Part shown: positions 1,051-41,948 of the stretch, piece after piece | Position numbering within the stretch: the first letter of the stretch is position 1 | Layout of the letters: every line of letters starts with the position of its first letter | DNA from: Schizochytrium sp. TIO01 | Taxonomy: Eukaryota > Sar > Bigyra > Thraustochytrida > Thraustochytriidae | Assembly (NCBI GenBank): GCA_004764695.1 | Contig: SMSO01000034.1 | Location: 1,009,501-1,073,500 of the forward strand | DNA: 64,000 bases | Direction of reading: 5' to 3' | Made by a program: the position numbers and the translations under genes | Notes under the pieces: model-generated | Told to the model about the DNA's origin: nothing | Database searches by the model: none | Seen by the model: only the letters and a program-made list of their open reading frames with translations

Positions 1051-2184
1051 TCAAAAGAGGAGAGCCACGAAGCACATTAAAAGTAAGAGGAGCGGGCCAG
1101 CAACATGCTGACGAGATGCAGGGCTTGGGCTGCTGGTAGGCACTGTTCCGATATAGTCCACTCCGGAGTCTTGAAATGTGAGGAAGTAGTCGTCACCAGT
1201 GACATGAGCAGCATAGTAATGGATCCAATATTCATAGTAAGAGACACGAGTATAAACATCTGGGTAAGCAGGCTCTGTATCTGCGCAATCAAATCCCCAA
1301 GAAACAATTCCAATAACCACTTCCGTTGAGTTGGATCTTGTTACCATCAAAGGACCACCAGAATCACCTTGGCAAGAGCCTTTGCCGCTACTCATCGCAC
1401 AAACTTCCACATCGCTATCAAGAGGAGCACCACCACTGCTGATAAGAGTATAGCATTTTAAGTTTGAAATGATTTGGAGTGTGACTTCGCGCAGGTATGA
1501 AGTAACAGAATTTCCATAGCCTGTGACACCATAGCCAGAAACTGTAGCATTCTCACCTACAGTAAGTTCAATGTTTTTACCAGCCAACACAGCAGGAGTG
1601 GCAGAAACTGAGGTCGAGTCTGTGAAGGCAAGATATGCAATGTCATTTTGGTATACGGTGCTATCATAATCTTGATGCACTACTTTGTATCTAGCTGAAG
1701 CCAGAAAATACGCGTCGGAGTCAGAGTCGGGGTCAGAGTTGTACATCTCGATATTGTTCACAAGAAACAATGCATATGCTGCGTTCAACGTATCAACAAC
1801 ACAATGGGCTGCAGTGAGCACCATATGGTAGCCTCCATTATGCCCAACATAGCTGCCTCCACACAAGTATGTTCCGTCCGACTCAACTAGCAAAAGGGCA
1901 ACAAGCCATTCCCTCTTTGTTGGATCTGCAACCACTCCATCCACGATACGAGTCGAAGCCAAACTCGACCTAATCGATGCGACAGACTCTGCGTCGAGAT
2001 AACCAGATTTAATTTTGGCTACAATATCATCGCTGACCTTTGTCAGGTTAGCGCGGTTCGCTGCGTTGTACCCAGCAGGCACCTCATCCAAGTTCATAAT
2101 TTTAGCCTGGCTAGGTGTAGCGCCGAGCACGGCGAGCACTGTAGCCAGTGCAAGTGCCATCCCAGCCCTCATCATGGCCTTCAT
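1051..2184 (-). CDS. P1: secreted S1-family serine protease with C-terminal hydrophobic tail
   Basis: Predicted secreted endopeptidase of the chymotrypsin/trypsin fold, 377 aa, single exon, ATG start. Seen: signal peptide (about residues 1-27, ending SQA); propeptide to R79; activation site R79|IVDG, where the usual IVGG has Asp in place of the first Gly; Cys pair of CGG and TAAHC; catalytic triad His127, Asp181 (NDIAY) and Ser275 (GDSGGP). The S1 pocket has Gly at position 189 (G269) and Asp at 226 (D309, YPDVYTRV), an elastase/crab-collagenase-like arrangement rather than trypsin's Asp189. An FLTF box (about 334-337) follows the domain, then SSPSPAS (351-357) and a Leu-rich hydrophobic C-terminus that could be a GPI signal. 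It is the leftmost of eleven same-strand paralogues. Enzyme class is certain; substrate is unknown. Confidence 0.93.
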   Translation of the reverse strand: MKAMMRAGMALALATVLAVLGATPSQAKIMNLDEVPAGYNAANRANLTKVSDDIVAKIKSGYLDAESVASIRSSLASTRIVDGVVADPTKREWLVALLLVESDGTYLCGGSYVGHNGGYHMVLTAAHCVVDTLNAAYALFLVNNIEMYNSDPDSDSDAYFLASARYKVVHQDYDSTVYQNDIAYLAFTDSTSVSATPAVLAGKNIELTVGENATVSGYGVTGYGNSVTSYLREVTLQIISNLKCYTLISSGGAPLDSDVEVCAMSSGKGSCQGDSGGPLMVTRSNSTEVVIGIVSWGFDCADTEPAYPDVYTRVSYYEYWIHYYAAHVTGDDYFLTFQDSGVDYIGTVPTSSPSPASRQHVAGPLLLLLMCFVALLF

Positions 2185-5100
2185 CTTCAGTCTCCGCGTC
2201 TCTCACACAAGCCCCAAGCCAGACCCCAACTCGCTTTCCGAAGGCCTCTGGTCGTGGCCAAGTTTCTTTGCGGGTTTGTTGCACATGCTCGTGCGTGCAC
2301 TACTCTACTACCTACTCATCATAACAAAGAAGCTGGGTAGTACTTAGTACCGAGGCTACTAGAAGCACGGAGAGGAGTCCAAGAATTAGTTATATGGAGG
2401 CAACTGCGTAGTAAAATTCAATTGCTCCGTCTCTCTGGGCATTAGGAACCTCTATGTGCGATTCTACTCAGCCAAATGTCCATTAATGCTCGCATAATGC
2501 ATGATTTGTTTATTACTTGCGCAAGCCTTCCAAACACGCCATGCTGGACTCTTCGAGGAGAGAGGGATGCTCTCGAGCTGCTGCTGGGCTCAAGCACTTG
2601 CGACGATGCTGTCAAGCTCATTGGCCTGGCGACCTGAACGCCTCAAAGTCTGATGCTGGATGCGGACCTCAGGTACCTGGGCATTGCCTTTCTATAAACA
2701 AATTCACTGTCCTTGGGTGGAGAGAAGTGAAGCAGAATGGGTCCTCTGAAACAAACCTTTATGGCTATGACTACATACGCTTAAGCTATAGTGCACACTT
2801 TGCGTATATTACTCTTTCGGCACGTGCACTGTAAGTGGTATATATGATTGTATGGTATGCAAAATCAGGTAATGTTGAAGAAGGAGTTCGAGTCTTTTGC
2901 CCGCAATGCATTACTCAAGCACCGATGCCCTGCATCTGCTGCTACCACCATGTTTTCCATGCACTTAAAAGGCACTTGTGCAAAGGTCGAGAGAGCTTTT
3001 GTGCGAGTTTGGCAGCTCATATTCGATTTCTAAGGGCCAGCTTTCCCCCTATTAATTTATTGTTTTCTTTTTGTTTATTAATATAAATATTTTAATTTAA
3101 TTACAAATAATTACAAATTACAAAACGCTGCCATTCTGCCAAAGTAGGTCGCACGCCCCAGCTTTGAGCGATGGTGGGGGTATTCGGAGGGAACGGGAGG
3201 GGCTTCGTTTATAAATCTGGATGCAGCCAGTCGTGCTGGGCATGGCCAAGATGCACCTCAAGCACTCACTGAATCCAATGCAAAGTCCATTTAGAAGAAG
3301 GACTCCTACCAGATTCCGCTAACTATTCATTATTGTTTTACGGGTGCCCTACTGTAACACCTAAGGACTTGCACATGCTATTCGAAGTTACCAAAGTGTT
3401 AGTCGGTTTGCTTTCTCTTATTTCTCACTCTCCGTCTCTTTCTGTCTTTTATCGATTATTTAGTTATATTATATTTTTTAATCTTATGATGTGATGTCGA
3501 AGGTAATATGCGCCTTTTTTGTAATACCAATCAATGGTCGATGGTGTGCCTTTGGTTATTCTCGTTCATCTCTTGACCTTTGTTTCACCAGGTTTGAGCA
3601 CGCTTCCCTGTGCTGGCATCGAAACGATTTCAAGCACCACTTTAGGGTCGCCGCACCGGTATAGCTTCGAGGAGGTGCCCGTCTGAATGGGTTTTTCTGT
3701 TTCTCACCGACCTGTGGCCAGCTTGGGTGGCTTACTACAGTAGGGCAATAATTTCATAGTGCGGGACTTGTGAATGGCAGATACCATAATAATGGCAGCT
3801 CATCTTGCGACACAAGTACGAACTGGGCATTTGGGGAAGCGGAGGCGCTCAAAAGCCCTGGAATTGATACTAAGGCCCGCCATTAGTCGTGATGGCCATG
3901 TGATCTGGGTGCTTTTCCTGCTTTCACCACTACTAGTGAGGGATGTTTCACAATCGTCCAGCGCAAGACTTCAAGGACTTAGAAGAAGAATCATGAGTAG
4001 CTGTGTCTAAAAATGCACAGTAGTACTACCTCAGGCTGACTTCGAAAGAGGGAGAAGCGTTCCCATTACCTAGGTCGGTAATGGGTAAATTTTTTTAGCT
4101 TGAAGGTAAAACAATCACGAGCGAGCGAGAAACCTGTCTCTCTCTCTCTCTTTCTCTCTTTCTTCGCGCTGCCTAACACTTGAACTAGAGAAAGAAGTGC
4201 TTCTGGTTGCTTCAAAGCAAGTATCGTGTCGTTTGTTTGAGTATGTTACAGAGCTTAGATATGAGTGCTACCTACCTTTAATTCGGTAGCTATGGCACTT
4301 TCCCTCTTTGGGATAAATTTAATTTTGACTCGACTCCTGACGAGGCAACTGGCAAGTTCTGATCGCCACAGTTTATCATCAGAAACTATCGAGCTGACCG
4401 CTGCCCATGATGACTCTTCCATTTGAAATAACTGACTGTCCGTAAATTCCGTATCCTTTCATGGGAACTGGGGAACTTGACCTCTATATTTGATGTACTC
4501 ACCAAATCCTGATATCAATCACATTCATCAACTGATATCTTTAAGTTGAGAACCCCCTCTCAATACACAATCACTTTAGTGTCTGGGAGTACAGGTACCT
4601 GTCTACCTACTGCCATAGTAGTTCCAATTTCCCTCGCTAGATTCATTTGTAAACTGTTACGCGCTACATATTCAATCAGCTCCTATACATTCTCGATTCC
4701 TGTTGCCTAGTGATCTATCTACACGACGCTTGTTCGTCGGGCAGTCCTGATCTACTTTCTGGTAAATCATTTAACTAGAAAAAATACAATTTCTTAGGCC
4801 TTTGTCTTGCTGCATCTAGCTACTAGGTACCTATCTAAGAAATATTTGGGAGACAAAACTGGGCAGCTTTGCTTATTTACCACCTCTGAGTAGAGTCCAG
4901 CATTGTCCAGCACCTTCACATTTCTAATTACCATTTTCCGTAAAATCCCTAGAAGGACATGGGCACTTGCAATTGGTGTTGTGTAAATAAGCGATCTCAT
5001 GCTTGAGGGTTCCTTATGCCCCGGATTCGTTGTGTCATTGAAGGGTAGCTGTTCAATAACATAATTTGAAGTATGTATGTCTCGTGGAGATATAATTTCC

Positions 5101-5445: not shown

Positions 5446-6720
5446 TTAAAGAGCCAACAAAACCAAGGTGCACAAGGCAAGAACTAGGGAGAACGGGCGC
5501 AACGACGAAGCCTGCGAAGGACTATCCAGCAGAGCACGTCCATTACTTTCATAAATAGTATCCCCAATTTCATACATAAAGCCTGTAGTTTCATTCCAGA
5601 GATCAACTGGGCTTGCAGTTGGAATGATAGAACTTGCTACAGTAGGGCTTGCTGACGGAGCACGTGATGGTGAGACGGTGTTGAAGGATTTGGAGTCAGC
5701 TTCCGCGGTTGTGTTGTAAAACTGAAGAAATGAGCTTGTGCCGCATACATTCTCAACCTTTTTCGTAACCCAAGATTGGAATGCAGAAACACGAGTGTAA
5801 ACATCAGGATAAGTAGGTTCTGTGTCTGCACATTCAATGCCCCAGGACACAAGACCTACCACAACTTCCTCGGAATTACGAGTAGCGATCAGCGGACCAC
5901 CTGAATCGCCGCTGCATGAGCCTTTGCCGGTAGACATGGCACATACCTCAACATCCATGTCTGTGGTCACACCTCCCTTTGTGTAAATGCTCTGACACTT
6001 TGTATCGGAAATAATTTGCAGAGTGACCTCGCGAAGGTCGTACTTGTCTGTCTGCTTGGCGTAAGATGTGAGTCCGTACCCAGTGACAGTAACATTCTCA
6101 CCAACTTCGAGAGACATGCCAGAGCCCGCTAAAGTGGCAGGAGTAGTAGTCTGCAGGTTCTCGTCTGTGAAGACAATAATGCCAATGTCATTGATGATAT
6201 TGGTAGAATCAAAGTCCGAATTGACAAACTTCTTGTAGTAGCTGCTGAGATAATAAGCATCCGAATCACTTCCCAAGTCGTTGAGATTATCGAGGTCAAA
6301 GAATGCATATGCCTTGCTGATCGAGTTGGCTAAGCAGTGTGCAGCAGTAACTACAAAGTGGTATCCGTTGGCGCTACCCACGTAGTTGCCGCCACAGAGG
6401 TACTCCTTATAGGATTTTCCAGATGCCACATAAGTAATGAGTGCAACCATCCACGACCGGTCTGACGGGTCAGCAAGGGTGCCTCCAATGATTCTTGCGC
6501 TCACTGAAGCCTTCGCTCTAGCGAGAAAGTCTGTCTCATTCGTAGACCCATCAACCTCCTCTTCCTCCAGAACTCTGAAAGCGGCCCTGTCTTCCTGAGC
6601 TTTGCTCCACGCATCAGCTATCCTGGAATCAATCTGTGCTTCACTCAGCTCCGCCTTTGCGACCGCGAAGGTCGCTACAAGCACGGCAGCGACCACAGAG
6701 CTTGCCCATGAGGCCCTCAT
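5446..6720 (-). CDS. P2: secreted S1-family serine protease with stalk and hydrophobic tail
   Basis: Chymotrypsin-fold protease, 424 aa, ATG start, no intron seen. Signal peptide about 1-23; propeptide containing FLARAKASVSA; activation at R76|IIGG. The catalytic triad is intact: His128 (TAAHC), Asp178 (NDIG), Ser273 (GDSGGPL). The S1 pocket is Gly267 (position 189) and Asp306 (position 226). The SSFLQFYN box is at 329-336, followed by a 60-70 residue Ser/Pro/Thr-rich stalk, SPSQAS (400-405) and a strongly hydrophobic last 15 residues. It is closest by eye to P10: both have GSANGYHFV, KAYAFF, DLNDL and a cysteine just before the FY box (VCGTSS/ICGTSS). An extracellular, probably surface-anchored enzyme is inferred. 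Confidence 0.94.
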   Translation of the reverse strand: MRASWASSVVAAVLVATFAVAKAELSEAQIDSRIADAWSKAQEDRAAFRVLEEEEVDGSTNETDFLARAKASVSARIIGGTLADPSDRSWMVALITYVASGKSYKEYLCGGNYVGSANGYHFVVTAAHCLANSISKAYAFFDLDNLNDLGSDSDAYYLSSYYKKFVNSDFDSTNIINDIGIIVFTDENLQTTTPATLAGSGMSLEVGENVTVTGYGLTSYAKQTDKYDLREVTLQIISDTKCQSIYTKGGVTTDMDVEVCAMSTGKGSCSGDSGGPLIATRNSEEVVVGLVSWGIECADTEPTYPDVYTRVSAFQSWVTKKVENVCGTSSFLQFYNTTAEADSKSFNTVSPSRAPSASPTVASSIIPTASPVDLWNETTGFMYEIGDTIYESNGRALLDSPSQASSLRPFSLVLALCTLVLLAL

Positions 6721-7969
6721 CTTCCTTTCCTGTCCGCGCTGTTATCACCGTTGGCGCTCGAAGAAGCCAACTTAATTTATCAGGGTTTGTTTGCTGACGT
6801 CGCGGAGGTCTTCGATGCGGTCTTCGACGCCACCTTCGCGCCGCCACCTTCGTGCCACCACCACGTTTCGGTTCTGCTGGCAGCTAGCCGTATTGCCTCG
6901 ACGCCCACTCCATCAATCAATCATGGCTCGGTAATCTTGGAACGAATTAAATGAACAAGTTTACAAACAACAGCTTTTCTTAGTTAACATCTTTGCTTTG
7001 CGAAAGAAAGTACATAAAAAGGAAGAAAACAAAAAGAAATAGAACCTCGTGGAGGGACCAGCTCGCCTGCCAAACGCAGCAATGGTGCAGCAGACCCACC
7101 AAGACATTCTCAGGAAGCACCGAGGACAGCGATGACAGTCTCGAATGGACAGGCTCTGGGACCTCACAAACAAAGGCTTCCTTCCTCCTGTGAGGTGAAC
7201 TGTCGAAGTCGAAAACAGTGAAAAAGGGGCGTCGAATGAACGTTCTAATATTGTTGTTTCCTGTTTCTTAAGCGAGAACTTCGATTTTCTCCGTCTTCAG
7301 CAGACCTTCAAGAACCCGCGCCCTCGCCTGCCACGAAACCAACCGCTCGCTCACAGGGGTGGATGCGCCCGCATGCATGGATGTGCTTTGATGCGTGTCA
7401 CCCCCGCTTGCCCATGCATGCAGGAGTCTGAGACGTCTGTCTGAGGATAATGCATGCAACTCAGCGGAATGTAGTGCAACGTAATCAATTAAACTCGAGA
7501 GATGCAATGAATGCAACACACGAAAGAACCCATTTTTCTGTCGCGAAGGCCTCTCTTGCAGCGAGGAGCTCAGAGCGACGGGGTCTTCTCGTGCCGCCCA
7601 AGCCTGCGTGCGGGGTGCTCAACGACACCGGGGACTGCGCCTCCTCCTTTGGAGATCCTCGTCGGCCAGAACTTCAGCCTTCCTGCGAACCGAAACAGTT
7701 TCCGCAGCTGCTCGAACCGCGACGCCTTTGGGGATCAAGCGATCAAGCTCTTCCTCGCCATTTAGCTGCACTAGCTGGCTGGCTCAGGGCCCGCCGAAAT
7801 CACCACCATCGCCAAAACCACCCACGAGGCGGGAAAAGCTCTCGGCCTCCGCAATCGATTCTGGACCTCGGCCTCTGCTGTACAATCAAAATCAGTACAT
7901 TGTCACCGCCACAACGACCGCCACAACGACGACGATGATGATGACCGCCTGAAAACATTTATTTTTCAT

Positions 7970-11036: not shown

Positions 11037-12407
11037 TTATGCCAAAACGAGCATAGTCAGAGTTGCCAAAACAGTAGACAGCATGATTGACACAGCACTT
11101 GCCATTGGGGCAGAAGACGGGCTTCCTGTGACGACCCCGGCATCGTTTGAATCCTTCTCCGTATTGGCAGAGGTACTATCAGAGCCGCTTGAGCTCGAAG
11201 AAGTGAAGTTCGAGGACGTTGGGCTGAGAGTAGAGTCCCATGTAGTTCCATCTGTCTCATTTGCTCCCGAGGTAGAGTTCTCGAAGGAGAAGCTGGTTGG
11301 AGCGCTCGTACCATTGGCGTAAGTGTTGTTTGAAAATGACTCTGGGGTGTCTTGTCCATCAACATAGAACTGCAAAAAGTCACTATCGCCAATCACAAGC
11401 TCTACGGAATAACGAAGCCAATCCTCAAAATAGGATACACGAGTGTAAACGTCTGGGTACATTGGCGCTGAGTCTGCACATTCAACGCCCCAGGAAACAA
11501 GGCCAATCACAATCTCTTCGGAATTGCGCGAAGCAATTAGAGGACCACCAGAATCGCCACTGCAGGAGCCTTTATCTTGGCTCATGGCGCAAATCTCTAC
11601 ATCCATGTCCATAAACACACCCACGGAAGTAAAGATATTTTTGCAGGTACTATCAGCCATCAGCTCAAGCGAAACTTCACGCAGGCTATACTCATAGTCC
11701 ACTGAAGGGGTATAATCGTCATAAGGGACGTTGTAAATTTGGTTACCATAGCCAGTAACTGTGACTACCTCACCAGCTTGAAGAGTCATGTTGGAGCTGG
11801 CAAGGATCGCTGGATCGGGGCCATTGAAATCGGAGTCAGTAAAAAAGAGCAATCCAATATCGTTTGTGTAGCTGCGCGAGCTGTAGTCCTCATGCCTCAT
11901 CTTATATTTAGCATGGCGCAGAACGTATGCATCAGAGTCAGTATTAAACGCTCCGAGGTCATCAGTGTCAAAAAACGCGTAGGCTGCGATGACTGAACCA
12001 GTAACACAGTGAGCTGCAGTCAAAATCACGTGGTATCCTCCAGCGCTGCCAATGTAGCTTCCTCCACAGAGCGCCTGGCCTCCTGATGACAACGAAAGAA
12101 GTACTGCTACCATCCAAGGACGTTTCAATGGGTCTGTGATGTAACCTCCCACAATTCTTGTGGTGGCAATATCTCTAACAAGAAATGAGATATCCTTCTC
12201 TGTAGCCGTCGCGTCTGATGAAAAGAGTTCTTCTTGGAGGCCATATACCGGAGCTCCGCTTGCCAAGACGCGGCGGGCTTTGGCCTCATACTGCAGGCCC
12301 TCTAAACCCGTGCCCACACCATTTGCATTGTCAAAGGCCATCGTCAGTCGTGCCAGAGACAGCAAAGAGAGCACGACCATAAACAGGCGCATTGTGGCAA
12401 GCACCAT
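11037..12407 (-). CDS. P3: secreted S1-family serine protease with Ser/Thr-rich stalk
   Basis: Chymotrypsin-fold protease, 456 aa. The ATG at 12407 is used; a second Met (residue 6, MRLFMVVLSLL) gives an equally good signal peptide. Propeptide with FLVRDIATT; activation R84|IVGG. Triad His133, Asp183, Ser286; pocket Gly280 (189) and Asp319 (226). A surface loop insertion with DDYTP (about 231-235), absent from most siblings, is shared with P4 and P10. The box SDFLQFYV (342-349) leads into a long Asn/Ser/Thr-rich stalk (about 360-430) with many N-x-S/T sites and then a hydrophobic C-terminus. A heavily glycosylated surface-anchored protease is inferred. Confidence 0.94.
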   Translation of the reverse strand: MVLATMRLFMVVLSLLSLARLTMAFDNANGVGTGLEGLQYEAKARRVLASGAPVYGLQEELFSSDATATEKDISFLVRDIATTRIVGGYITDPLKRPWMVAVLLSLSSGGQALCGGSYIGSAGGYHVILTAAHCVTGSVIAAYAFFDTDDLGAFNTDSDAYVLRHAKYKMRHEDYSSRSYTNDIGLLFFTDSDFNGPDPAILASSNMTLQAGEVVTVTGYGNQIYNVPYDDYTPSVDYEYSLREVSLELMADSTCKNIFTSVGVFMDMDVEICAMSQDKGSCSGDSGGPLIASRNSEEIVIGLVSWGVECADSAPMYPDVYTRVSYFEDWLRYSVELVIGDSDFLQFYVDGQDTPESFSNNTYANGTSAPTSFSFENSTSGANETDGTTWDSTLSPTSSNFTSSSSSGSDSTSANTEKDSNDAGVVTGSPSSAPMASAVSIMLSTVLATLTMLVLA

Positions 12408-13619: not shown

Positions 13620-14999
13620 TTATTTGAGTATCGAATCTGACAAGACAGCAAATAAGCAAACTAAGAATAGATTGATGAGCGTCCCAGATGAAGAATTAGG
13701 AGCCATTGTTGGGGCTGGAGAATTGACGGATGTAGCTTCTACAAAATCTTGCACCGTTGGAGCGGAGAGTTGAGTGGGTACCGGAGTTGAAAAGTTTTCA
13801 GTTGCCAGTGTTTCAGAGTCTCCCACAGACTCATTTCCATAGAACCGAAGAAACGAAGATGATCCAGCAATACTATAAACTGCGTCCTCAATCCAACTTT
13901 TGTAAAAAGAAATACGCGTATACACATCGGGATAGGTCGGCATTGTATCTGCGCATTGCACCCCCCAAGATACAAGTCCAACAACAACCTTTTGAGATCC
14001 CCGCGTGGCAATGAGGGGCCCACCAGAATCACCATGGCATGAACCTTTTCCTTTTGAAAATGCACACACTTCGCTTTCCATATCAGTGATTAGAGACACA
14101 TTGTGATAGATTTGTGCACAGTTGTCGTCAGGGAATATCTGCATCTCTACTTCTCGCAGCTCGTAGTCGGTATTCTCTGCTGGCGTATAATCATCTCCAG
14201 GAATGTTGTAAGCAGTGTAGCCATAGCCAATGACAGAAACGGTTTCTTGATCTTCAAGATGCAAAGAATGGTCAGCCAGGTAAGCTATCGTAGGTTCAAC
14301 ATCGATTTCATCATTGAAGATCACGATGCCAACATCATTTAAAATGTCAACTGGGTTATAGCTTTCATGAATAACCTTCGTGTGGTAGTTTATCAGCCAT
14401 ATTGTATCATTTGAGGAGACGGCATTACGGAGATTGTTAGTATTAAAAACCGCAATAGCTCGCTCGAAGGATTGTGAAATACAGTGTGCTGCCGTCAATA
14501 CAAAATGAAAACCATCGAAGCTTCCGATATAATTTGCGCCACATATATACTGTTTACCGGACGCAACTGTCACAAGCCCTCCCATCCAGCCGTACTTGTT
14601 CACATCAACAAGGTATCCGTCAATGATCTTTGGTGTGGTGGTTGCTATCTTATTAAGTTTTCCTTCATCTGCATTCTGTAGCATCCTATTTTGAAAGATA
14701 CTCAACAAATAGCTTGGGTCACTTTCATCGCTGAAAATCTCATTTCTCTCTACGTTGTCGCTATGTTTATTAATCGAAGCCGGTGTGTAGTCACCAGAAC
14801 CTTGGAACCTTGAAAGTTCCTCTGGTTCATCTGTCCCGGGTCGCACAGGTGAACTATAGTCGCTTCGACCTACAGCAGTAATTTCAGAAAGGCTTTCGCC
14901 TTGGCCTCTGAGCTCACTCGGTGCAATTGTAGTTGCGACTGCACAGCCTACTGCCAATAGAGCCACACCAACGATAACACCAGGGCGAAATCCCACCAT
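13620..14999 (-). CDS. P4: secreted S1-family serine protease with long propeptide
   Basis: Chymotrypsin-fold protease, 459 aa from the ATG at 14999. The open frame extends upstream to a TTG at 15068, but only the internal ATG gives a signal peptide (MVGFRPGVIVGVALLAVG). The propeptide is about 100 residues, the longest of the array. The activation site has Lys in place of Arg (PK124|IIDG). Triad His172, Asp222 (NDVG), Ser325 (GDSGGP); pocket Gly189 with Asp226 (YPDVYTRI). It carries the DDYTP loop insertion shared with P3 and P10. The SSFLRFYG box (about 380-387) is followed by a Thr/Pro/Ser stalk and a weaker hydrophobic end. A degraded copy of part of this propeptide lies at 17586-17665. 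Confidence 0.92.
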   Translation of the reverse strand: MVGFRPGVIVGVALLAVGCAVATTIAPSELRGQGESLSEITAVGRSDYSSPVRPGTDEPEELSRFQGSGDYTPASINKHSDNVERNEIFSDESDPSYLLSIFQNRMLQNADEGKLNKIATTTPKIIDGYLVDVNKYGWMGGLVTVASGKQYICGANYIGSFDGFHFVLTAAHCISQSFERAIAVFNTNNLRNAVSSNDTIWLINYHTKVIHESYNPVDILNDVGIVIFNDEIDVEPTIAYLADHSLHLEDQETVSVIGYGYTAYNIPGDDYTPAENTDYELREVEMQIFPDDNCAQIYHNVSLITDMESEVCAFSKGKGSCHGDSGGPLIATRGSQKVVVGLVSWGVQCADTMPTYPDVYTRISFYKSWIEDAVYSIAGSSSFLRFYGNESVGDSETLATENFSTPVPTQLSAPTVQDFVEATSVNSPAPTMAPNSSSGTLINLFLVCLFAVLSDSILK

Positions 15000-15575: not shown

Positions 15576-16811
15576 TCATCCATACTGGACTCGGATGTGA
15601 ATAACAATAAAGAACAACGCTAATCCTACATTTACACGACTTGAAGAACCAAGTTCTCCTGAGGAAGTCCAAAGATATGGAATGTAATCAACGGCCATTG
15701 ATGCAAATTCATCGGACTTCATAAAAATAAGATCTTCTGAATCGATAGTGCCAGAATCAAAGGTTGTCGGCTTTTCATGAAATCTTAAAAAATCAGATCT
15801 GCCAACCGTGGAGTTCACAATAGAACGTATCCATTTTTCGTGAGCAGAGACTCGACTGTATACGCTAGGAAAGTGAATTCGATCAGGACATCCATAAGTC
15901 CAAGACACTAAACCAACAACAACCTCGCTTCCATTGCGTTTGATTAATAAAGGTCCTCCCGAATCACCTCTGCATGGCCCCTTTGTATCTTTGATGGTGC
16001 AAAGCTCTGATTCTGGATCAAGGGCAACTTTTGTCTTAGAAAAGAATGACAGACATTTGTTGCTCGACATAATTCGAAGCTTCACTTGACGAAGAACATC
16101 ATCAGATGATGTTTGCAACGAAGATGTATAGCCATAACCTGCCATCATTGCAACCTCCCCACCACGAAGATGTGTTTCGGAACTGCCTAAGACTGCAGGA
16201 GCTGGAGAAGAAAAGTTGTTTTGCTTGAAAATTAGCAAACCAATGTCATTTGTGTAGTTATGTATGTTGAAGCCTGCATGTATATATTTCCTGTATAACT
16301 CGTTAAGGAAATGACCCCGTGGGGCAGAATTAAACTTTGTGAGCTGATTTGTTTTAAAAAATGCCGAAATAGATGTTTGGTTTGACTCGATACAATGTCC
16401 AGCAGTGAGTATGAAGTGAAAGCTCTCTTTACTTCCAATGTAAACTCCACCGCATACTGTTTTTGAGCCTTGCTCGGTTGGATTCATCGCAGATTGGATC
16501 AAAAGCCCAACCATGTATGGTCGAGAACTCGCAGCAACTTTGTAGCCACCTACTATGAGATCTCTTCTTGCTTGTATTGATGGGATACCAGAATGTCCTA
16601 CTCCTGACAAGTGTGCGTTTGTCATCATCCATGATGGCTTTCTTTCGTTAAGGTCATGTGTCATCAGTTCGAGATTTTGCACATTTATGCTACTATCGTT
16701 GAGCCCGTTTGTCTTGACCGCCAATTCACATAATACAATAGTGAATAATGCAAAGCGCATTGTTTGCACCATCATTTGTATCATGTCACTTCTTTTCAAC
16801 ATTGCAAACAT
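15576..16811 (-). CDS. P5: divergent S1-family serine protease with altered activation site and S1 pocket
   Basis: Chymotrypsin-fold protease, up to 411 aa. The longest ATG is used; Met18 (MRFALFTIVLCEL, at 16760) aligns better with the signal peptides of P3 and P8 and may be the true start. Triad intact: His139 (TAGHC), Asp189, Ser284 (RGDSGGP). Three oddities: the new N-terminus IVGG (86-89) is preceded by RRDL, so there is no basic P1 residue; the pocket has Gly at 189 and Ser at 226 (FPSVYSRV), so neither acid is present; and Gly216 is Thr (SWTYGC). The SDFLRFHE box is at 339-346. The C-terminal hydrophobic segment ends with polar residues, so anchoring is less certain. Specificity is probably unlike its siblings, perhaps for uncharged residues (inference). 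Confidence 0.91.
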   Translation of the reverse strand: MFAMLKRSDMIQMMVQTMRFALFTIVLCELAVKTNGLNDSSINVQNLELMTHDLNERKPSWMMTNAHLSGVGHSGIPSIQARRDLIVGGYKVAASSRPYMVGLLIQSAMNPTEQGSKTVCGGVYIGSKESFHFILTAGHCIESNQTSISAFFKTNQLTKFNSAPRGHFLNELYRKYIHAGFNIHNYTNDIGLLIFKQNNFSSPAPAVLGSSETHLRGGEVAMMAGYGYTSSLQTSSDDVLRQVKLRIMSSNKCLSFFSKTKVALDPESELCTIKDTKGPCRGDSGGPLLIKRNGSEVVVGLVSWTYGCPDRIHFPSVYSRVSAHEKWIRSIVNSTVGRSDFLRFHEKPTTFDSGTIDSEDLIFMKSDEFASMAVDYIPYLWTSSGELGSSSRVNVGLALFFIVIHIRVQYG

Positions 16812-18203: not shown

Positions 18204-19292
18204 TCACACCAATGCTATGATCGAGACGAGCAGCGTAGCCAAGGCTGGCATAAAGATGCTTTTCGTCAGCGAAGACGCAGGAGATGGCGCGTAAGAAGAC
18301 GACTGATTGTAAAATCGTAAGAAACTAGAATTTCCTGTCAGGGAAGCAACCTGCGTATCAATCCAGTCTTCAAAATAGGTCACACGAGTGTAGACATCAG
18401 GATATGATGCCGTGTCTGCACATTCAACACCCCAAGACACCAATCCAATGACAACTTCTTCGTCACCACGATAAGCAATGAGCGGGCCTCCAGAGTCACC
18501 ACTGCAGGAACCTTTATCGCTTGCCTCAGCACAGATTTCAACATCCATATCTGTCTCAACATTCACTCTACTAAAGGTAGATGAACACGAGGAGTCACTA
18601 ATCAGAGAAAGGTTGACAGCACGCAATTCGTAGTCACGAGATTGAGTTCGGTAAGAAGTTAAACCGTATCCAGTGACAGTTACGGTCTCGCCGGTTACCA
18701 GATCGATTTTGGACGAACCCAAGATTGCAGGCGTCGGTGCTGTAAACGAAGAGTCTGTGAAAACGAGAATTCCAATGTCATTGGTGTATGCGGATGCATC
18801 ATAGTTGGCATTGACAAACTTTGTGCTAAAACTAGACAGTGAGTACGAGTCACTCGTTAAGGTTTCGGCATTGTCCGTGTTAAAGGAAGCCTTCGCACTA
18901 TCGAAGTTGTTGACTACGCAGTGAGCTGCAGTAACGACAAAATGGTAGCCACTGGAGCTGCCGATGTAGCTACCGCCGCACAAGGTGGCAGTATTCGAAG
19001 AGCTGTTGTACATGTTAAGTGCCACCATCCACTCGCGGTCACTGGCATCAACAGTAACACCTCCAATAATTCGTGTTGAGGCTGTGACAGTGCTGGCTGC
19101 CTCTGTAGCATTAGTTGCATTAATTGGGATTGTCACCGGAGTGGAGTAGATAGAAACATTGCTAGCTGTAACCCACGTCGGGATTGCTGAGAAATCCGCC
19201 ACTACTGGAGAGGTTACATTCAATACTGCCAATGCCACCAGGAGCAGCTTGCCAAGGCCTTTTGCCGAGGCTCCGAAGTATGTGAAAGCCAT
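18204..19292 (-). CDS. P6: secreted S1-family serine protease, short form
   Basis: Chymotrypsin-fold protease, 362 aa, ATG start, intronless. Signal peptide about 1-32. The short propeptide contains IYSTPVTIPIN, related to YATPIVVQIN in P7 and YASPVSFAIE in P9. Activation R74|IIGG. Triad His124, Asp172, Ser267; pocket Gly189 (KGSCSGDSGG) and Asp299 at 226. The SSFLRFYN box (322-329) is followed almost at once by APSPAS (335-340) and a hydrophobic tail, so the stalk is nearly absent. Closest by eye to P7 (DREWMVAL, MYN, YHF). A GGGTTTG heptamer lies about 130 bp upstream of the ATG. Confidence 0.94.
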   Translation of the reverse strand: MAFTYFGASAKGLGKLLLVALAVLNVTSPVVADFSAIPTWVTASNVSIYSTPVTIPINATNATEAASTVTASTRIIGGVTVDASDREWMVALNMYNSSSNTATLCGGSYIGSSSGYHFVVTAAHCVVNNFDSAKASFNTDNAETLTSDSYSLSSFSTKFVNANYDASAYTNDIGILVFTDSSFTAPTPAILGSSKIDLVTGETVTVTGYGLTSYRTQSRDYELRAVNLSLISDSSCSSTFSRVNVETDMDVEICAEASDKGSCSGDSGGPLIAYRGDEEVVIGLVSWGVECADTASYPDVYTRVTYFEDWIDTQVASLTGNSSFLRFYNQSSSYAPSPASSLTKSIFMPALATLLVSIIALV

Positions 19293-22765: not shown

Positions 22766-23974
22766 TCAAAGATGGGCTGAGAAAAAAAGAAGAGCAGCTA
22801 CAGCAAGGCCTAATGAGCCTTCGCCAAGCTTTGATGCCGGACTCGGGGCGTTATCACTTGTGCTTTCTGCGATGGAAGCACTAGGTGATGATGTTGATGA
22901 GTTAGACTCGGTATATGAAGAGTCAGTATATTCATCAGAATCTGCGTCAGAATCTGAGCTAGAGTCAGAATCAGAGTCAGAGGACATTGTGGTGCTATTG
23001 TAGAATGTAAGGAAGCTTGATGTACCAGCCACTGAGGCGACATTGGTCTTAATCCAATCAACATAAGTTGAGACACGAGTGTATACATCAGGGTATGCAG
23101 CAGTGTCAGCACATTCAACACCCCATGAAACAAGACCAATCACAATTTCATAATCTCCGCGAGTTACAATTAGTGGACCACCAGAGTCGCCACTGCAAGC
23201 TCCCTTGTCGTCCGCCATGGCACAAACCTCTACGTCGAGATCAGTAGGAACACCAACCTTTGCAAAGTCGGATTTGCATGTAGCATTTGAAAGGAGGCTA
23301 AGAGTGACCTCCCTAAGGGAATAATCATCACTCTGGGTAGCATAAGAGGTGAGCCCATATCCGGTTACAGTGACATTTTCGCCAACCACAAGGTCAATCT
23401 CTGGAGTAGCAAGGACTGCAGGTGTTGGTCCAGAAAAGCTTGACGACTTAAAGGTAATAATGCCAATGTCATTCGTGATCGTTGAGGAATCATAATCGGC
23501 ATTAACAACTTTGCTTGAGTAAGACTTGAGGTAGTAGTATCCGCTGTTCGCCCGCTCAAGATTGTCAAGGTTAAAGTATGCAATTGCAGTATCAAATGTA
23601 TCAACCAAACAGTGCGCAGCTGTAACAATAAAATGGTAGTTTCCAGAGCTGCCAACATAGTTGCCGCCACAGAGAGTGGCGGAGGATGAACTTTGATTGT
23701 ACATCAGCAACGCGACCATCCACTCGCGGTCAGTAGCATCTACTGTAACACCACCAATGATTCTTGTGGAAATGGACACTGAGCGGACGGTTGAGACTAA
23801 CTCATCAGCGCTTGCTGTCTCATTAATTTGAACTACAATCGGAGTAGCGTACACAGTGATATTATCACCCGTTGTGAAGGTTGCCTCCATCGAAGCTGTG
23901 CTCAACTGCACCGCGTTGGCGATGACCAGGAGAACCGCTGACAGCGCTGCAAGAGCGGCACGTGAGAGCTGCAT
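22766..23974 (-). CDS. P7: secreted S1-family serine protease with Ser-Asp repeat stalk
   Basis: Chymotrypsin-fold protease, 402 aa, ATG start. Signal peptide about 1-27; propeptide with VYATPIVVQIN; activation R71|IIGG. Triad His121, Asp169, Ser264; pocket Gly189/Ala190 (KGACSGDSGG) and Asp296 at 226. The SSFLTFYN box (319-326) leads into an acidic stalk of Ser-Asp repeats (about 331-349) and Ser/Thr-rich sequence, then APSPAS (377-382) and a hydrophobic C-terminus. The SD-repeat stalk is unique in the array. Such acidic repeats can extend a domain from a surface and bind Ca2+ in other proteins; here that is only a possibility. A GGGTTTG heptamer lies about 110 bp upstream. Confidence 0.94.
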   Translation of the reverse strand: MQLSRAALAALSAVLLVIANAVQLSTASMEATFTTGDNITVYATPIVVQINETASADELVSTVRSVSISTRIIGGVTVDATDREWMVALLMYNQSSSSATLCGGNYVGSSGNYHFIVTAAHCLVDTFDTAIAYFNLDNLERANSGYYYLKSYSSKVVNADYDSSTITNDIGIITFKSSSFSGPTPAVLATPEIDLVVGENVTVTGYGLTSYATQSDDYSLREVTLSLLSNATCKSDFAKVGVPTDLDVEVCAMADDKGACSGDSGGPLIVTRGDYEIVIGLVSWGVECADTAAYPDVYTRVSTYVDWIKTNVASVAGTSSFLTFYNSTTMSSDSDSDSSSDSDADSDEYTDSSYTESNSSTSSPSASIAESTSDNAPSPASKLGEGSLGLAVAALLFFSAHL

Positions 23975-26973: not shown

Positions 26974-28590
26974 TTACATTAGAATTAGCTTGAGGATAGA
27001 GATGGCCAGAAGAATTAAATTTGACTCTGATTTACGATTCGCCGAGTTTCGGGCGAATGGAAAATCTAATACCAGAGGGCTTTGCGTCGGTGTTGAGGTA
27101 GGTGCAACTGTAGGAGACGCATGCCCAATTGGAGCATCTGTAATTGATGTTATCGATGGTGCATTTGATGCCTCAGTAACCACATTTGGGGTTTCTGTTG
27201 AAGTCAGTGGCAGTGGCGATGTTGTTGGCACATCAAGGTAAGCTGTTGGCGCAGAGGTTGGTGCTATTGGCGCAGTTGTTGGTGCTATTGGAGCAGTTGT
27301 TGGTGCTATTGGAGCAGTTGTTGGTGCGATCGGCGCAGTCGTTGGTGCTATTGGAGCAGTTGTTGGTGCGATCGGCGCAGTTGTTGGTGCTATTGGAGCA
27401 GTTGTTGGTGCGATCGGCGCAGTTGTTGGTGCTATTGGAGCAGTTGTTGGTGCGATCGGCGCAGTTGTTGGTGCTATTGGAGCAGTTGTTGGTGCAATCG
27501 GCGCAATTGTTGGTGCTATTGGAGCAGATGTCGGCATAGTTGGAGCAGATGTTGGCTCAGTTGGAGCAGACGTTGGCTCAGTTGGAGCAGATGTTGGCTC
27601 AGTTGGAGCAGACGTTGGCTCAGTTGGAGCAGACGTTGGAGCAGCTGTTGGAGTTTGATAGAAAAGCAAGAAGTCAGATGTTGTGCCTGTCAAAGAGGCT
27701 ACGGTTGTCTTGATCCACTCTGTATATGCTGATATACGGGTGTGAACGTAAGGGTAGTTAGCTGTATCAGCGCACTCGATGCTCCAGGATACAATCCCCA
27801 CTACAAACTCTTCACTATCGCGTGAGACAATCAAAGGTCCACCACTATCCTCGAGGCAAGCGCCCTCTCCATTTGTATAGGTACAAACCTGTAAGTCTAA
27901 GTTTGTACTCACACCAGCTGAATCAAATGTCGAGGTACAGCTAGAATTTGACATAATGCTGGTCTCTAGTTCGCGTAACACTCCATCTGAACTTTGATTA
28001 GCATATGATGTAAACCCGTATCCAGTAACCGTAACAGTCTCATTCTCCACTAGGTTAAGTTCCGGAGTTGCAAGAGCAGCGGGAGTAGGACCCGAAAACG
28101 ACGAATGAAAGAATGTCAGGATGCCGATATCGTTTGTGTGAGAAGTAGCATTGTAGTCAGGGTGGTAGACTTTGGATCCATATTGATTAAGCATATAGTA
28201 GCCACTGGACACAGATTCCATAGAATTAGTGTAAAAAAAGGCGCCGGCAATACTAAAGGAGCTAACAAGACACTGTGCCGCTGTAAGCATATAGTGCCAA
28301 TTATTGTAGCTACCAATATATACTCCGCCGCATATATAGTTACTTGAGGAACTATAATCAATGAATGTGATGCCAACCATCCATTGGCGATTTGACACAT
28401 CAACCGTGTAACCTCCAACGATGCGCGTAGAAGCTACTGTCTCATTCGAAGCATTACTTTGAAGAGTTTCAGGGAAATCTGATGATGAGTTCAAAGAATG
28501 AAGTTTATCTCCACGCTGGGTGTTAGTTCCTGATAGCTCCGTAACAATACTTGCAAAGGACAGACACAGCAAAACCATAAAGAAACGCAT
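26974..28590 (-). CDS. P8: catalytically dead S1-family protease homologue with long PT-repeat stalk
   Basis: Secreted pseudoprotease, 538 aa from the ATG at 28590. The frame opens at a TTG at 28614, but the ATG begins a clean signal peptide, MRFFMVLLCLSFASIV. Activation site R56|IVGG is kept, as are Asp154 (NDIG) and Ser249. The catalytic His is Gln106 (TAAQC) and oxyanion-hole Gly193 is Glu247 (CLEDSGG), so normal hydrolysis should be lost. Position 216 is Ser, 226 is Tyr, and Tyr228 is His. The fold Cys residues remain and the frame is open for over 1.6 kb, arguing against simple decay. The SDFLLFYQ box (305-312) is followed by about 140 residues of heptads of the PTSAPTE and PTTAPIA types, then a Ser/Thr/Pro linker and hydrophobic end. 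Closest by eye to P9 (LDLQVCTY). A decoy, inhibitor or binding role is inferred. Confidence 0.93.
   Translation of the reverse strand: MRFFMVLLCLSFASIVTELSGTNTQRGDKLHSLNSSSDFPETLQSNASNETVASTRIVGGYTVDVSNRQWMVGITFIDYSSSSNYICGGVYIGSYNNWHYMLTAAQCLVSSFSIAGAFFYTNSMESVSSGYYMLNQYGSKVYHPDYNATSHTNDIGILTFFHSSFSGPTPAALATPELNLVENETVTVTGYGFTSYANQSSDGVLRELETSIMSNSSCTSTFDSAGVSTNLDLQVCTYTNGEGACLEDSGGPLIVSRDSEEFVVGIVSWSIECADTANYPYVHTRISAYTEWIKTTVASLTGTTSDFLLFYQTPTAAPTSAPTEPTSAPTEPTSAPTEPTSAPTEPTSAPTMPTSAPIAPTIAPIAPTTAPIAPTTAPIAPTTAPIAPTTAPIAPTTAPIAPTTAPIAPTTAPIAPTTAPIAPTTAPIAPTTAPIAPTTAPIAPTSAPTAYLDVPTTSPLPLTSTETPNVVTEASNAPSITSITDAPIGHASPTVAPTSTPTQSPLVLDFPFARNSANRKSESNLILLAISILKLILM
27220..27636. repeat. 21-bp coding minisatellite with 42-bp higher-order unit
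   Basis: Tandem 21-bp units within P8, each coding one heptad. One block codes PTSAPTE-type heptads (about 27535-27636). The other codes APIAPTT-type heptads in which two sequence variants, containing GCTATTGGAGCAG or GCGATCGGCGCAG, alternate to give a 42-bp higher-order period. The alternation suggests recent expansion by unequal exchange of 42-bp pairs. Confidence 0.92.
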
Positions 28591-30267: not shown

Positions 30268-31686
30268 TTAATCCAAATTTATCATCACAAGGGCCACAAA
30301 CATACCGGTTGCGAAGGTGAATGCTGATATACGACTTGCAGGGCTGGGAGTGAACGGGAACGGGAATTCTACAGGAGGAAGAGTAGGGTTTTCCGTCGGA
30401 GCAATCGTAATGACTTCAATAGAAGTTGGTGCAGTCGTGGATACTGTAGGTGAAGCAGAACTAGGTGTCGTGGGCGAGTCTGTAATTGTTGTAGGCGAAA
30501 TCGTGGTGGGCGTGGGTGAAGTAGTAAACTCCGTCGGTGAAGCAGTAGGCGAAGTCGGTGATACAGTAGGCGAAGCAGTAGAAGCAACTGGAGAAGTAGT
30601 CGGGGCTGTCGGAGAAGCAGTATTGGCAACTGGAGCAGTAGTGGGGCTTGTCGGCGAAGTAGTAGGGGCTGTCGGTGGAATTGTCGGTGTAGTTGGGGAT
30701 GCCGTAGGTGTAGATGAGTCATAGAATTTAAGAAAGCTCGAGCTTCCTGTTGCAGCCGCAACGTTGCTCTTAATCCAGCTCTCATAAGTCGAAACGCGTG
30801 TGTATACGTCAGGGTAACTGGCTGTGTCAGCACACTCTATACCCCAAGATACTATTCCCATTACAATCTCCTCGCCAGCTCGAGTTGCAACCAACGGACC
30901 ACCTGAGTCACCGCTGCAAGAACCCTTCTTGTAGTTGTAAGTACAGACTTGCAAATCTAAATCAGTTGGAATGCCAACTGTATTAAACTGAGTAGCACAG
31001 CTAGAATCCGATATTAGGTTCACTTTGACTTCGCGAAGTAACCCATCCATACTTTGCGTAGCATAAGAGGTAATTCCATAGCCAGTAACCGTGAGAGTCT
31101 CACCAACAACCAGATTTAGATCAGAAGACGCCAGTATCGGAGTGCTGGGTCCGGAGAAGGTTGTATCATAAAATGTCAAGATACCAATATCGTTTTGGAT
31201 TGTTGAAGGGTCATAGCTTGCATGGTATCTTTTGGATGTGTATTGACTCAAATAGTACTCATCGCTCTTTATAGTTTCTGCATAGGCTGAATCGAAATTG
31301 AAAAAGGCCGCTGCATATGTGAAATCACCCACAATGCAGTGAGCAGCAGTAAGGATGGCATGATAATTATTGTTACTCCCAATGTAGCTGCCTCCACAAA
31401 TTGTTGCATAGCCTGTTGTTTGATCAACGAAGAGGATACCAACCATCCATTCCCGATTCGTTGCATCAACGGTATACCCGCCAATAATGCGTGAAGAAGC
31501 AAACTCTTTTCGTGCAAGAGGAAGAATCTTGTCGACGGTGCTATTCGGTTCAATTGCGAACGAAACTGGAGAAGCATAAACTGCGTCGCCCTCCCGTGTT
31601 TGGAAAGTTGGCATTAGTTTCGCATGAACAATCGAAATCATGGCCACAGCAAAAATGCACAAGGTTGTAGACCTTAACAGCCACAT
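30268..31686 (-). CDS. P9: secreted S1-family serine protease with Ser/Thr/Pro stalk
   Basis: Chymotrypsin-fold protease, 472 aa, ATG start, intronless. Signal peptide about 1-22 (ending VHA); propeptide with VYASPVSFAIE; activation R66|IIGG. Triad His116, Asp166, Ser261; pocket Gly189 (KGSCSGDSGG) and Asp293 at 226. The SSFLKFYD box (316-323) is followed by a ~115-residue stalk of irregular TSPT/ASPT/APT repeats, then TPSPAS (446-451) and a hydrophobic tail. It is the active counterpart of P8: they share YTVD at the mature N-terminus, LDLQVCTY before the active serine and a PT stalk. Surface anchoring is inferred. Confidence 0.94.
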   Translation of the reverse strand: MWLLRSTTLCIFAVAMISIVHAKLMPTFQTREGDAVYASPVSFAIEPNSTVDKILPLARKEFASSRIIGGYTVDATNREWMVGILFVDQTTGYATICGGSYIGSNNNYHAILTAAHCIVGDFTYAAAFFNFDSAYAETIKSDEYYLSQYTSKRYHASYDPSTIQNDIGILTFYDTTFSGPSTPILASSDLNLVVGETLTVTGYGITSYATQSMDGLLREVKVNLISDSSCATQFNTVGIPTDLDLQVCTYNYKKGSCSGDSGGPLVATRAGEEIVMGIVSWGIECADTASYPDVYTRVSTYESWIKSNVAAATGSSSFLKFYDSSTPTASPTTPTIPPTAPTTSPTSPTTAPVANTASPTAPTTSPVASTASPTVSPTSPTASPTEFTTSPTPTTISPTTITDSPTTPSSASPTVSTTAPTSIEVITIAPTENPTLPPVEFPFPFTPSPASRISAFTFATGMFVALVMINLD

Positions 31687-34762: not shown

Positions 34763-35974
34763 TCAACGAGCGAAAAGGTTAAAATAGCAAGAGAGGAGCA
34801 ACACTATAAATGAAAGCTTCCACAGAGGCCGATCAACACTCGAACTTGACGGAGATGATGGTGATGATGCGGTGGTTGAAGAATATTCAGTTCCGTTGTA
34901 AAAGCGAACAAAAGAACTGGTACCACAAATATTCTCAACATTAGTCTTAATCCACGACTCATAAACAGAAACTCGGGTGTATACATCAGGATATGTGGGT
35001 TCGGTATCCGCACATTCAACACCCCATGAAACTAGTCCAACGACAACCTCACTTGAGTTACGGGTTGCAATGAGTGGGCCACCTGAATCTCCACTGCACG
35101 ATCCTTTACCTGTGGACATAGCACACAGCTCAACATCCATATCGACAGAGATTCCGCCTTCGGTATAGATACTCTCGCATTCAGAGTCAGATATGAGTGC
35201 TAGATCTACCTCGTGTAGTTGATAATCTTTATCTGCCTCCGGGGTATAATCATCGTATGGTTCATTATACACAGTGTTACCATACCCGGTGACAATTACG
35301 CTTTCACCTGTTTCAAGTGTCATATTTTCACTTGCGAGGGTTGCTGGTGTTGTCGTCTTTAGGTTAGAGTCGGTGAAGGTGATGATTCCGATGTCGTTTG
35401 TGATTGATGAAGAATCATAGTCAGAATTGATGATTTTGCTCGAGTAACTGCTCAACATGTACAAATCAGTATCTGAATCTAGATCATTGAGATCATTCAA
35501 GTTAAAAAACGCATACGCTTTGTGAATAGAGTCTGCAAGGCAGTGTGCGGCTGAGAGGACAAAGTGGTAGCCATTAGCACTGCCAATATAATTTCCGCCA
35601 CAAAGAACCTCTTCATAGCTGTTTCCTCCACGGGGAATATACATAATAAGAGCTACAAACCAGGATCGCTCACTTGGATTCACTGTCACACCACCAATAA
35701 TTCTGGAGCTTACGATGTCTCGAGCTAAATCTGCAAGATCACTTGTATTGCGAGTTGGGAGGCTTGCATTCAAATCCATAACAAGGCCGATATCATCGTT
35801 TGCCATCCTTCGGCGGCCATCTGCGTCACCATCACTATTGTCCAAGTATACCATCCTGGTTTGAGGAGCGCGGGTAGAAATACCCTTGGCGTCTGCAGTC
35901 TGGATTTCTAACGCCAAGCATAATAGCAAAGAGAATGCAGCTACTATAGCACGTTTCATTGTGGGGATCATCAT
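34763..35974 (-). CDS. P10: secreted S1-family serine protease
   Basis: Chymotrypsin-fold protease, 403 aa, ATG start (Met6 is an alternative start of the signal peptide). Propeptide to LARDIVSS; activation R91|IIGG. Triad His144 (SAAHC), Asp194, Ser297; pocket Gly189 (KGSCSGDSGG) and Asp330 at 226. It combines features of two siblings: most of the domain resembles P2 (GSANGYHFV, KAYAFF, DLNDL, CGTSSF), but it carries the DDYTP loop insertion (about 241-245) found in P3 and P4. The SSFVRFYN box (353-360) is followed by a short Ser/Pro stretch and a hydrophobic tail ending in FAR. Recombination or gene conversion within the array is a reasonable inference. Confidence 0.94.
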   Translation of the reverse strand: MMIPTMKRAIVAAFSLLLCLALEIQTADAKGISTRAPQTRMVYLDNSDGDADGRRRMANDDIGLVMDLNASLPTRNTSDLADLARDIVSSRIIGGVTVNPSERSWFVALIMYIPRGGNSYEEVLCGGNYIGSANGYHFVLSAAHCLADSIHKAYAFFNLNDLNDLDSDTDLYMLSSYSSKIINSDYDSSSITNDIGIITFTDSNLKTTTPATLASENMTLETGESVIVTGYGNTVYNEPYDDYTPEADKDYQLHEVDLALISDSECESIYTEGGISVDMDVELCAMSTGKGSCSGDSGGPLIATRNSSEVVVGLVSWGVECADTEPTYPDVYTRVSVYESWIKTNVENICGTSSFVRFYNGTEYSSTTASSPSSPSSSSVDRPLWKLSFIVLLLSCYFNLFAR

Positions 35975-40799: not shown

Positions 40800-41948
40800 T
40801 CAGTACATGGAAAATAGAAGAGTAACCATCAGGGCCATGCAGGACACCATCAAGCTCTGAGCAGAGGAGGTTGGCGAGTTGGTAGGGTTCATTGTGGGCG
40901 AAGACGTAGAGTTGATGGTTTCGGAACGGTGAGAAGACGGTCCACCACCAAAACCAGGGAAGCCTCCACTGCCAGGACCAAAGCTGTTGGCCGTTGTCGG
41001 TGCCTTAGTGGGTGACGGTGTCGGCGCAGTAGGTGCTGCAGTAGGCACAAAGGTGCTGTTTGAGTACGGCGAGTCGTAGAAACGAAGTCCAGAGGTATCT
41101 CCGTTAGGGGATGTGGAGTTCACCGTAGCACGAATCCAGGACTCGTATGTTGAAAGACGAGTGTAGACACCAGGGTAACCAGGGTAGGCACAGCCATATC
41201 CAAAGGCCACCAGACCCACCTCGACCTCTTCAGCACCCTCATAAGGATGCACGGTAAGAGGACCACCCGAGTCGCCCTGGCAAGAGTCGCGACCAGGGGC
41301 TGCAGCGCAAATGTGTTCCGATGGAATGATGGTGAACATACTTGCGTAGTCGTTGCCACAAACGGTCTCGTTGACAATGTCAAGAGTGGTCTGGCGGAGC
41401 TCGTAATCTGTGCTGCCTCCAGAAGAAGTAGTTCCGTAGCCGCTGACTGTGGCATTCTCACCTGGGTAGACAGTCATGTACTCTCCAGCGAGAAGCGCAG
41501 AGGTCGGGAGGTCAACGTTGGCATCCTTAAAGATCACAAGTGCCAAGTCATTGTCCGTGGAGCCATCTTCGTTCTCAACAAAGTCAGGGTGCACAACAAT
41601 GCCAACGGCATCAACAAGGTTGAAGGAGTCAGAGTCATACTCCTCAAGGTCGTCGCGCAGGAACATGGCCACTGGCTGGAGCTCGCCAGACGGAATGCAG
41701 TGACCTGCTGTGAGCATGTAATGGTATCCATCGGAGCTGCCGATGTAAGAGCTACCGCAAAGGTACTCCTCGTTGGTGGTGTAATCCACAATAATCATGG
41801 CAGCCATCCACTCACGAATTTTGGGGCTGATCACAACACCTCCAACGATCCTGGTGGAGGCTGTTACACTAGCTGCTTCAGCTTGGAGCGGCGTCAAGAC
41901 CGCTGCACAGGCAAGCGCAAGAACCATCTTCATAGCCCTCATCATCAT
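40800..41948 (-). CDS. P11: canonical-pocket trypsin-like serine protease
   Basis: S1 protease, 382 aa from the ATG at 41948. The frame continues upstream to an ATG at 42131 and a TTG at 42134, but only the MMMRAMKMVLALACAAV start gives a signal peptide. The propeptide is very short: activation R33|IVGG lies about 10 residues after the signal peptide. Triad His83 (TAGHC), Asp134 (DNDL), Ser227 (QGDSGGP). Uniquely in the array the pocket is Asp221 at position 189 (RDSCQGDSGG) and Gly260 at 226 (YPGVYTRL), so cleavage after Arg/Lys is expected. Ser214-Trp215 are replaced by Ala-Phe (VAFGYGC). The degenerate box SGLRFYD is at 286-292; a Thr/Pro and Gly/Phe-rich stalk and a hydrophobic C-terminus follow. 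It could activate the other R/K|IxGG zymogens (inference). Confidence 0.92.
   Translation of the reverse strand: MMMRAMKMVLALACAAVLTPLQAEAASVTASTRIVGGVVISPKIREWMAAMIIVDYTTNEEYLCGSSYIGSSDGYHYMLTAGHCIPSGELQPVAMFLRDDLEEYDSDSFNLVDAVGIVVHPDFVENEDGSTDNDLALVIFKDANVDLPTSALLAGEYMTVYPGENATVSGYGTTSSGGSTDYELRQTTLDIVNETVCGNDYASMFTIIPSEHICAAAPGRDSCQGDSGGPLTVHPYEGAEEVEVGLVAFGYGCAYPGYPGVYTRLSTYESWIRATVNSTSPNGDTSGLRFYDSPYSNSTFVPTAAPTAPTPSPTKAPTTANSFGPGSGGFPGFGGGPSSHRSETINSTSSPTMNPTNSPTSSAQSLMVSCMALMVTLLFSMY

Follow-up and report, generated by a model that had tools for sequence, protein, structure and literature searches.

In S1A proteases of the Gly189/Gly216/Asp226 (GGD) pocket type, reported specificities are Lys-preferring and trypsin-like, broad, or chymotrypsin-like (PMC7914634, PMC11172050). 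Rat trypsin D189G/G226D still prefers basic residues, Lys more than Arg, and the complement proteases with a shifted acid likewise retain a basic preference, while in the neutrophil enzymes Val190 and Val216 shield the acid (PMC7914634). Crab collagenase is broad in specificity, and insect enzymes that share its S1 trio are chymotrypsin-like (PMC11172050); in fire-ant chymotrypsin, Asp226 has to rotate away (PMC2930297).

The window analyzed here, a 64,000-nucleotide stretch of DNA from Schizochytrium sp. TIO01 (contig SMSO01000034.1, positions 1,009,501 to 1,073,500), contains eleven S1A (trypsin-fold) protease genes, P1–P11, which are intact, intronless and arranged head to tail on the minus strand, with their eleven S1 domains between 1051 and 42134. 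The 64-Mb genome contains 43 exact copies of a labyrinthulomycete 18S primer site, the one copy inspected being part of an rRNA unit, in agreement with its origin in a labyrinthulomycete, a marine protist. Residues are given in chymotrypsinogen numbering, and the genes are as follows.

P1, 1051–2184, minus strand: predicted secreted S1A protease; Gly189 (1378–1380, GGC), Asp226 (1258–1260, GAT), Gly216; presumed start Met.
P2, 5446–6720, minus strand: S1A protease; Gly189 (5920–5922, GGC), Asp226 (5803–5805, GAT), Gly216.
P3, 11037–12392, minus strand: S1A protease; Gly189 (11568–11570, GGC), Asp226 (11451–11453, GAC), Gly216.
P4, 13620–14999, minus strand: S1A protease; Gly189 (14043–14045, GGT), Asp226 (13926–13928, GAT), Gly216; Lys at the activation site.
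P5, 15576–16760, minus strand: S1A protease with an acid-free pocket; Gly189 (15978–15980, GGG), Pro190, Thr216, Ser226 (15864–15866, AGC); triad intact.
P6, 18204–19292, minus strand: S1A protease; Gly189 (18510–18512, GGT), Asp226 (18396–18398, GAT), Gly216.
P7, 22766–23974, minus strand: S1A protease; Gly189 (23201–23203, GGA), Ala190, Asp226 (23087–23089, GAT), Gly216.
P8, 26974–28590, minus strand: putative pseudoprotease; H57Q (28273–28275), G193E, Gly189 (27862–27864), Ala190, Ser216, Tyr226 (27748–27750, TAC).
P9, 30268–31686, minus strand: S1A protease; Gly189 (30922–30924, GGT), Asp226 (30808–30810, GAC), Gly216; modelled.
P10, 34763–35959, minus strand: S1A protease; Gly189 (35102–35104, GGA), Asp226 (34985–34987, GAT), Gly216.
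P11, 40800–41948, minus strand: trypsin-type S1A protease; Asp189 (41286–41288, GAC), Gly226 (41169–41171, GGT), Gly216, short loop 2; modelled.

Each gene is a single open frame of 374–552 codons, and all eleven loci match Pfam Trypsin (PF00089) at 108.7–137.8 bits, far above the curated cut-off of 20.6 bits. The His57-Asp102-Ser195 triad is intact in every member except P8. Nearly all gene pairs are saturated at synonymous sites and pairwise dN is 0.23–0.81, implying that the array reading frames are old and constrained; because of the saturation, only the sign of dN/dS (constraint) is used, its magnitude being unusable. No degenerate S1 remnants were found between the array genes, and a motif match at 7788, which falls in no S1 domain and is absent from the tblastn matches, was rejected as an additional S1 gene and ascribed to chance. 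Reading frames in the intergenic stretches and flanks of the array had no match in a Pfam search. An 857-codon Lys/Arg/Ser-rich open frame, also without a Pfam match, adjoins the array (45622–48195, plus strand), and the open frame at 51972–53969 (plus strand) resembles an AMPK/SNF1-type protein kinase by eye. A literature search found no paper on these labyrinthulomycete genes.

All eleven proteins comprise a hydrophobic N terminus, a propeptide, the protease domain and a hydrophobic C terminus, most with a Ser/Thr/Pro-rich stretch, and hydropathy analysis places only 0–6 residues beyond the C-terminal hydrophobic segment in each. This layout suggests that P1–P11 are secreted, surface-anchored zymogens, and the hydropathy profile would be compatible with a GPI-type anchor. 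The residue preceding Ile16 is Arg or Lys in 10 of the 11, and Leu in P5.

Codon-level reading of all eleven genes confirmed the residues originally predicted at positions 189 and 226. The GGD trio is present in P1–P4, P6, P7, P9 and P10. Position 189 is encoded by GGN (Gly) in P1–P10 and by GAC (Asp) in P11, and position 226 by GAT or GAC in eight genes, AGC in P5, TAC in P8 and GGT in P11. P11 (Asp189/Gly216/Gly226) is therefore alone in the array in having the trypsin DGG pocket, P1–P10 being without Asp189, and neither P5 nor P8 has an acid at 189 or 226. The register is anchored by conserved flanking residues (Cys191, Gly193, Asp194 and Ser195; Cys220; Pro225-X-Val227-Tyr228), which, together with alignment to PDB 1bra and 1azz, identify 189 and 226 as S1-pocket positions. 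The motifs GKGSC.GDSGGP and PDVYT align in register with 1bra, with Pro225-Asp226-Val227-Tyr228 unshifted, and the array Asp aligns with position 226 of fiddler-crab collagenase (1azz), in keeping with the proposed likeness to the crab enzyme and to D189G/G226D trypsin. Judged by alignment, the Asp of the YPD motif lies within the S1 pocket. A Glu or Asp at position 219, near the pocket mouth, accompanies Asp226 in seven of the eight genes (Gln in P4), and Glu219 also occurs in L008, an S1A gene elsewhere in the genome; this second acid could contribute alongside Asp226. Of the structural modelling suggested for the domains, AlphaFold models were produced for P9 and P11 (pLDDT 86.0 and 84.1); both overlay solved S1A structures along the whole double-barrel fold, with the match extending from Ile16 to approximately residue 244 (Z about 28, rmsd about 2 Å over 217–235 residues).

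Across the genome, 11 S1A genes are Asp189/Gly226, eight are Gly189/Asp226, none has both acids and four have neither (P5, P8, L011 and L016). Outside P1–P10, all are Asp189/Gly226 except L011 (Asn189) and L016 (Ser189/Asn226). L016 (G000:C33:607895-608614), located on the same contig, is a diverged S1A gene on a long branch, with Ser189, Ile190, Ser216 and Asn226 giving an uncharged pocket; L023 (G000:C24:109522-109806) has a long acidic insertion in its S1A domain and, by eye, Cys-rich SRCR-like repeats downstream. Since nearly all the other S1A genes share it, Asp189/Gly226 is the older arrangement, the point on which the original prediction had called for ancestral reconstruction. The order of states was taken from parsimony counts of single-site states, which give one change at the 189 acid for the genome's own genes when the long-branch rows L011 and L016 are left out.

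In a maximum-likelihood tree of the genome's S1A domains and five references, P1–P10 form a clade with support of 100/98, whether the two trait columns are included or removed, and of 100/97 after addition of bacterial rows. Because P1–P10 are one clade, the agreement at Asp226 reflects descent rather than repeated covariation, and the eight Asp226 genes share one ancestral swap on the P1–P10 stem. The perfect covariation initially noted thus holds in that the two acids are mutually exclusive genome-wide, but it amounts to one inherited event; even with kinship ignored, the exact probability for eight genes versus one is only 1/9. Chance resemblance is not at issue, since the motifs are homologous and conserved, yet the eight-to-one split is a single phylogenetic event.

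The pocket also changed in length. Loop 2, which likewise governs specificity in the S1A family, comprises 7–8 residues (Cys220 to residue 226) in all of P1–P10 and six in their nearest relatives; most members outside the clade have six, L016 has five and crab collagenase seven. Loop 2 gained these one or two residues on the same branch as the acid swap, implying that the relocation was part of a larger pocket change and not a clean two-residue swap.

Two members of the clade have departed from the GGD pocket. P8 has Gln57, Glu193, Ser216 and Tyr226, its Tyr codon (TAC) differs by a single base from GAC, the codon at that position in its sister P9, and its tail carries a long PTTAPIA-type repeat. 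Its frame is open, and relative to P9 its synonymous sites are saturated with a dN of 0.34; P8 thus appears to be a long-retained pseudoprotease rather than a decaying gene, a homologue in which activity is not expected and for which a role as decoy or regulator is possible. P5 keeps the triad but has Gly189/Pro190/Thr216/Ser226, predicting a blocked, elastase-like pocket, and is the sole member with Leu before Ile16 (16554–16556), so that its activating protease and its specificity should differ from those of the other members. Derivation of its Ser226 from Asp226 is suggested by the position of P5 in the tree, on a long branch; AGC is two changes from GAC.

We consider it probable, with good confidence, that the array is a tandem S1A family in which a single floor-to-wall move of the acid and the remodelling of loop 2 took place on the P1–P10 stem, P5 and P8 changed later and P11 has the ancestral pocket. 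The S1 acid would have moved once from Asp189 on the pocket floor to Asp226 on its wall, on the branch that also saw the remodelling of loop 2 (220–226); subsequent duplication within the clade would have given ten genes, eight of which retain the wall acid, and P5 and P8 would later have lost it, P8 also losing His57 and Gly193. P11 would have kept the ancestral trypsin pocket, and the secreted proteases are probably anchored at the cell surface. This reading draws on what is established for the array, namely the residues, the order of states, the single origin and the fold; the array gives no evidence of repeated swapping, nor as yet of a specific change in cleavage.

Whether the swap occurred inside the array depends on P11, which groups with L008, a gene on contig C13; support for the pair is 96/79 when all sites are used, 84/84 after removal of the trait columns and 95/80 with bacterial rows. 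These three trees slightly tip the balance towards P11 being an older trypsin lineage that merely adjoins the array and has its closest relative elsewhere in the genome. Against this, P11 is the directly neighbouring gene, in the same orientation, and the AU test fails to reject an 11-gene array clade (p 0.254). A swap within one tandem array, as originally described, is therefore possible rather than established.

With respect to function, Asp226 should be accessible in the array enzymes, since small residues occupy both 190 and 216, although it might instead be shielded or pair with Ser190/Tyr228. Most probably, primary specificity has changed in the wall-acid enzymes, to a preference that is either broad and brachyurin-like or directed to Lys and aromatic residues instead of Arg>Lys; in this they would be unlike P11, which probably cleaves after Arg/Lys. 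Alternatively, the wall acid may have had little effect, P1–P10 remaining Lys/Arg enzymes in the manner of rat D189G/G226D trypsin and the vertebrate complement factors. These enzymes do keep a basic preference (PMC7914634), and seven of the eight genes with the wall acid retain Ser190, but insect and crab proteases sharing this residue trio show chymotrypsin-like or broad specificity (PMC11172050) and the specificity-governing loop 2 was lengthened on the same branch; we regard this alternative as rather unlikely, if a serious one. Given how widely GGD specificities vary, divergence is likely but its direction is unpredictable. Of the clean specificity divergence first proposed, the divergence remains likely, whereas 'clean' does not hold, since GGD specificities vary, Asp226 can be shielded or rotate (PMC7914634, PMC2930297) and loop 2 has changed as well.

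The Arg or Lys before Ile16 in 10 of the 11 zymogens makes activation by a trypsin-type enzyme such as P11 possible, and P11 could activate the other zymogens at this conserved Arg/Lys|Ile site. A fuller scenario, a specificity radiation equipped with its own trypsin, would have P11 activating nine proforms with Arg/Lys sites, P5 as an elastase-like enzyme with a Leu site, P8 as a decoy or regulator, and the swap proceeding via a neutral pocket, as in the acid-free bacterial relatives described below; we hold it to be doubtful, with perhaps a one-in-four standing. Parallel swaps under selection, one per array gene, are very improbable: we found nothing in their favour, the agreement of the two sites being expected under them too, and the eight genes fall in one clade (100/98) for which one event and two losses fit both the tree and the loop length.

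The same pocket has arisen in bacteria. Among 130 bacterial or viral-contig relatives, a sample biased towards the query, in which 18 are unreadable at 226 and background frequencies are approximate, 95 have Asp189/Gly216/Gly226, three have Gly189/Asp226 and no readable row has both acids. The three represent two independent origins, in Colwellia and in an actinomycete. The latter, L069, from an actinomycete metagenome-assembled genome, is Gly189/Asp226 with a nearest row, L041, that has Asp189, marking a separate origin. The Colwellia-type clade, including L169 of the Alteromonadales set, is supported at 99/97; its sister group (L052, L063, L067 and L170) is Gly189/Gly226 or Ser189/Gly226, and further out L168, a paralogue in the L099 genome, is Asp189/Gly226. 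By parsimony in this small sample, the floor acid would have been lost in Alteromonadales before the wall acid was gained, and the series Asp189/Gly226, Ser189/Gly226, Gly189/Gly226, Gly189/Asp226 forms a candidate stepwise path through an acid-free pocket. The bacterial acid-free enzymes are thereby natural candidates for an intermediate not preserved in the array, and the series makes it testable whether loss of the floor charge precedes gain of the wall charge. A bacterial or arthropod source of the array pocket by horizontal transfer was rejected, because the GGD enzymes sampled fall into distinct clades. Together, the array and the two bacterial origins indicate that the two acids are mutually exclusive and that this pocket has been rebuilt repeatedly.

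Comparison with known systems places the eight genes in the GGD pocket type. Crab collagenase 1 (brachyurin, 1azz) shares Gly189, Gly216 and Asp226 with them, and its KGTCNGDSGGP and YPDAFTRV motifs correspond to KGSCSGDSGGP and YPDVYTRV in the array, although its Cys220 pattern differs and it lacks the C-terminal anchor region. The crab enzyme falls apart from the array in trees with and without bacterial rows (insect GGD enzymes being outside the tree sampling), implying that the pocket is convergent; descent from the crab GGD lineage is thus unsupported by the trees. Some insect GGD chymotrypsins (fire-ant 1eq9, Tenebrio clade A4) have the same S1 trio (PMC11172050; Asp226 of 1eq9, PMC2930297), but are animal digestive enzymes with measured chymotrypsin-like specificity, whereas the array is known from sequence. 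Rat trypsin D189G/G226D (1bra) has the identical charge relocation, and the string GKGSCQGDSGGP is common to P1 and 1bra; it is, however, an engineered trypsin whose loop 2 is short, in contrast to the natural divergence and the one or two additional loop residues of the array. Vertebrate complement factors D and B, C1r-LP and the neutrophil proteases also carry the negative charge at 226 instead of 189, and their duplicating family likewise includes inactive homologues (PMC7914634), but they belong to a vertebrate lineage, with Ser or Asn at 189 in some, and the neutrophil enzymes have the Val190/Val216 shield where the array has Ser/Ala190 and Gly216. The Colwellia-type bacterial enzymes (L056, L099 and L169) are natural Gly189/Asp226 proteases with KGSCQGDSGGP or RGSCQGDSGGP and FPDVY or FPDIY motifs; unlike the array, they are bacterial, form a separate clade and have nearest relatives with an acid-free pocket. 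The pocket change in the array is thus of a known kind, documented in crabs, insects and vertebrates; the array contributes a natural protist example of S1-pocket charge relocation.
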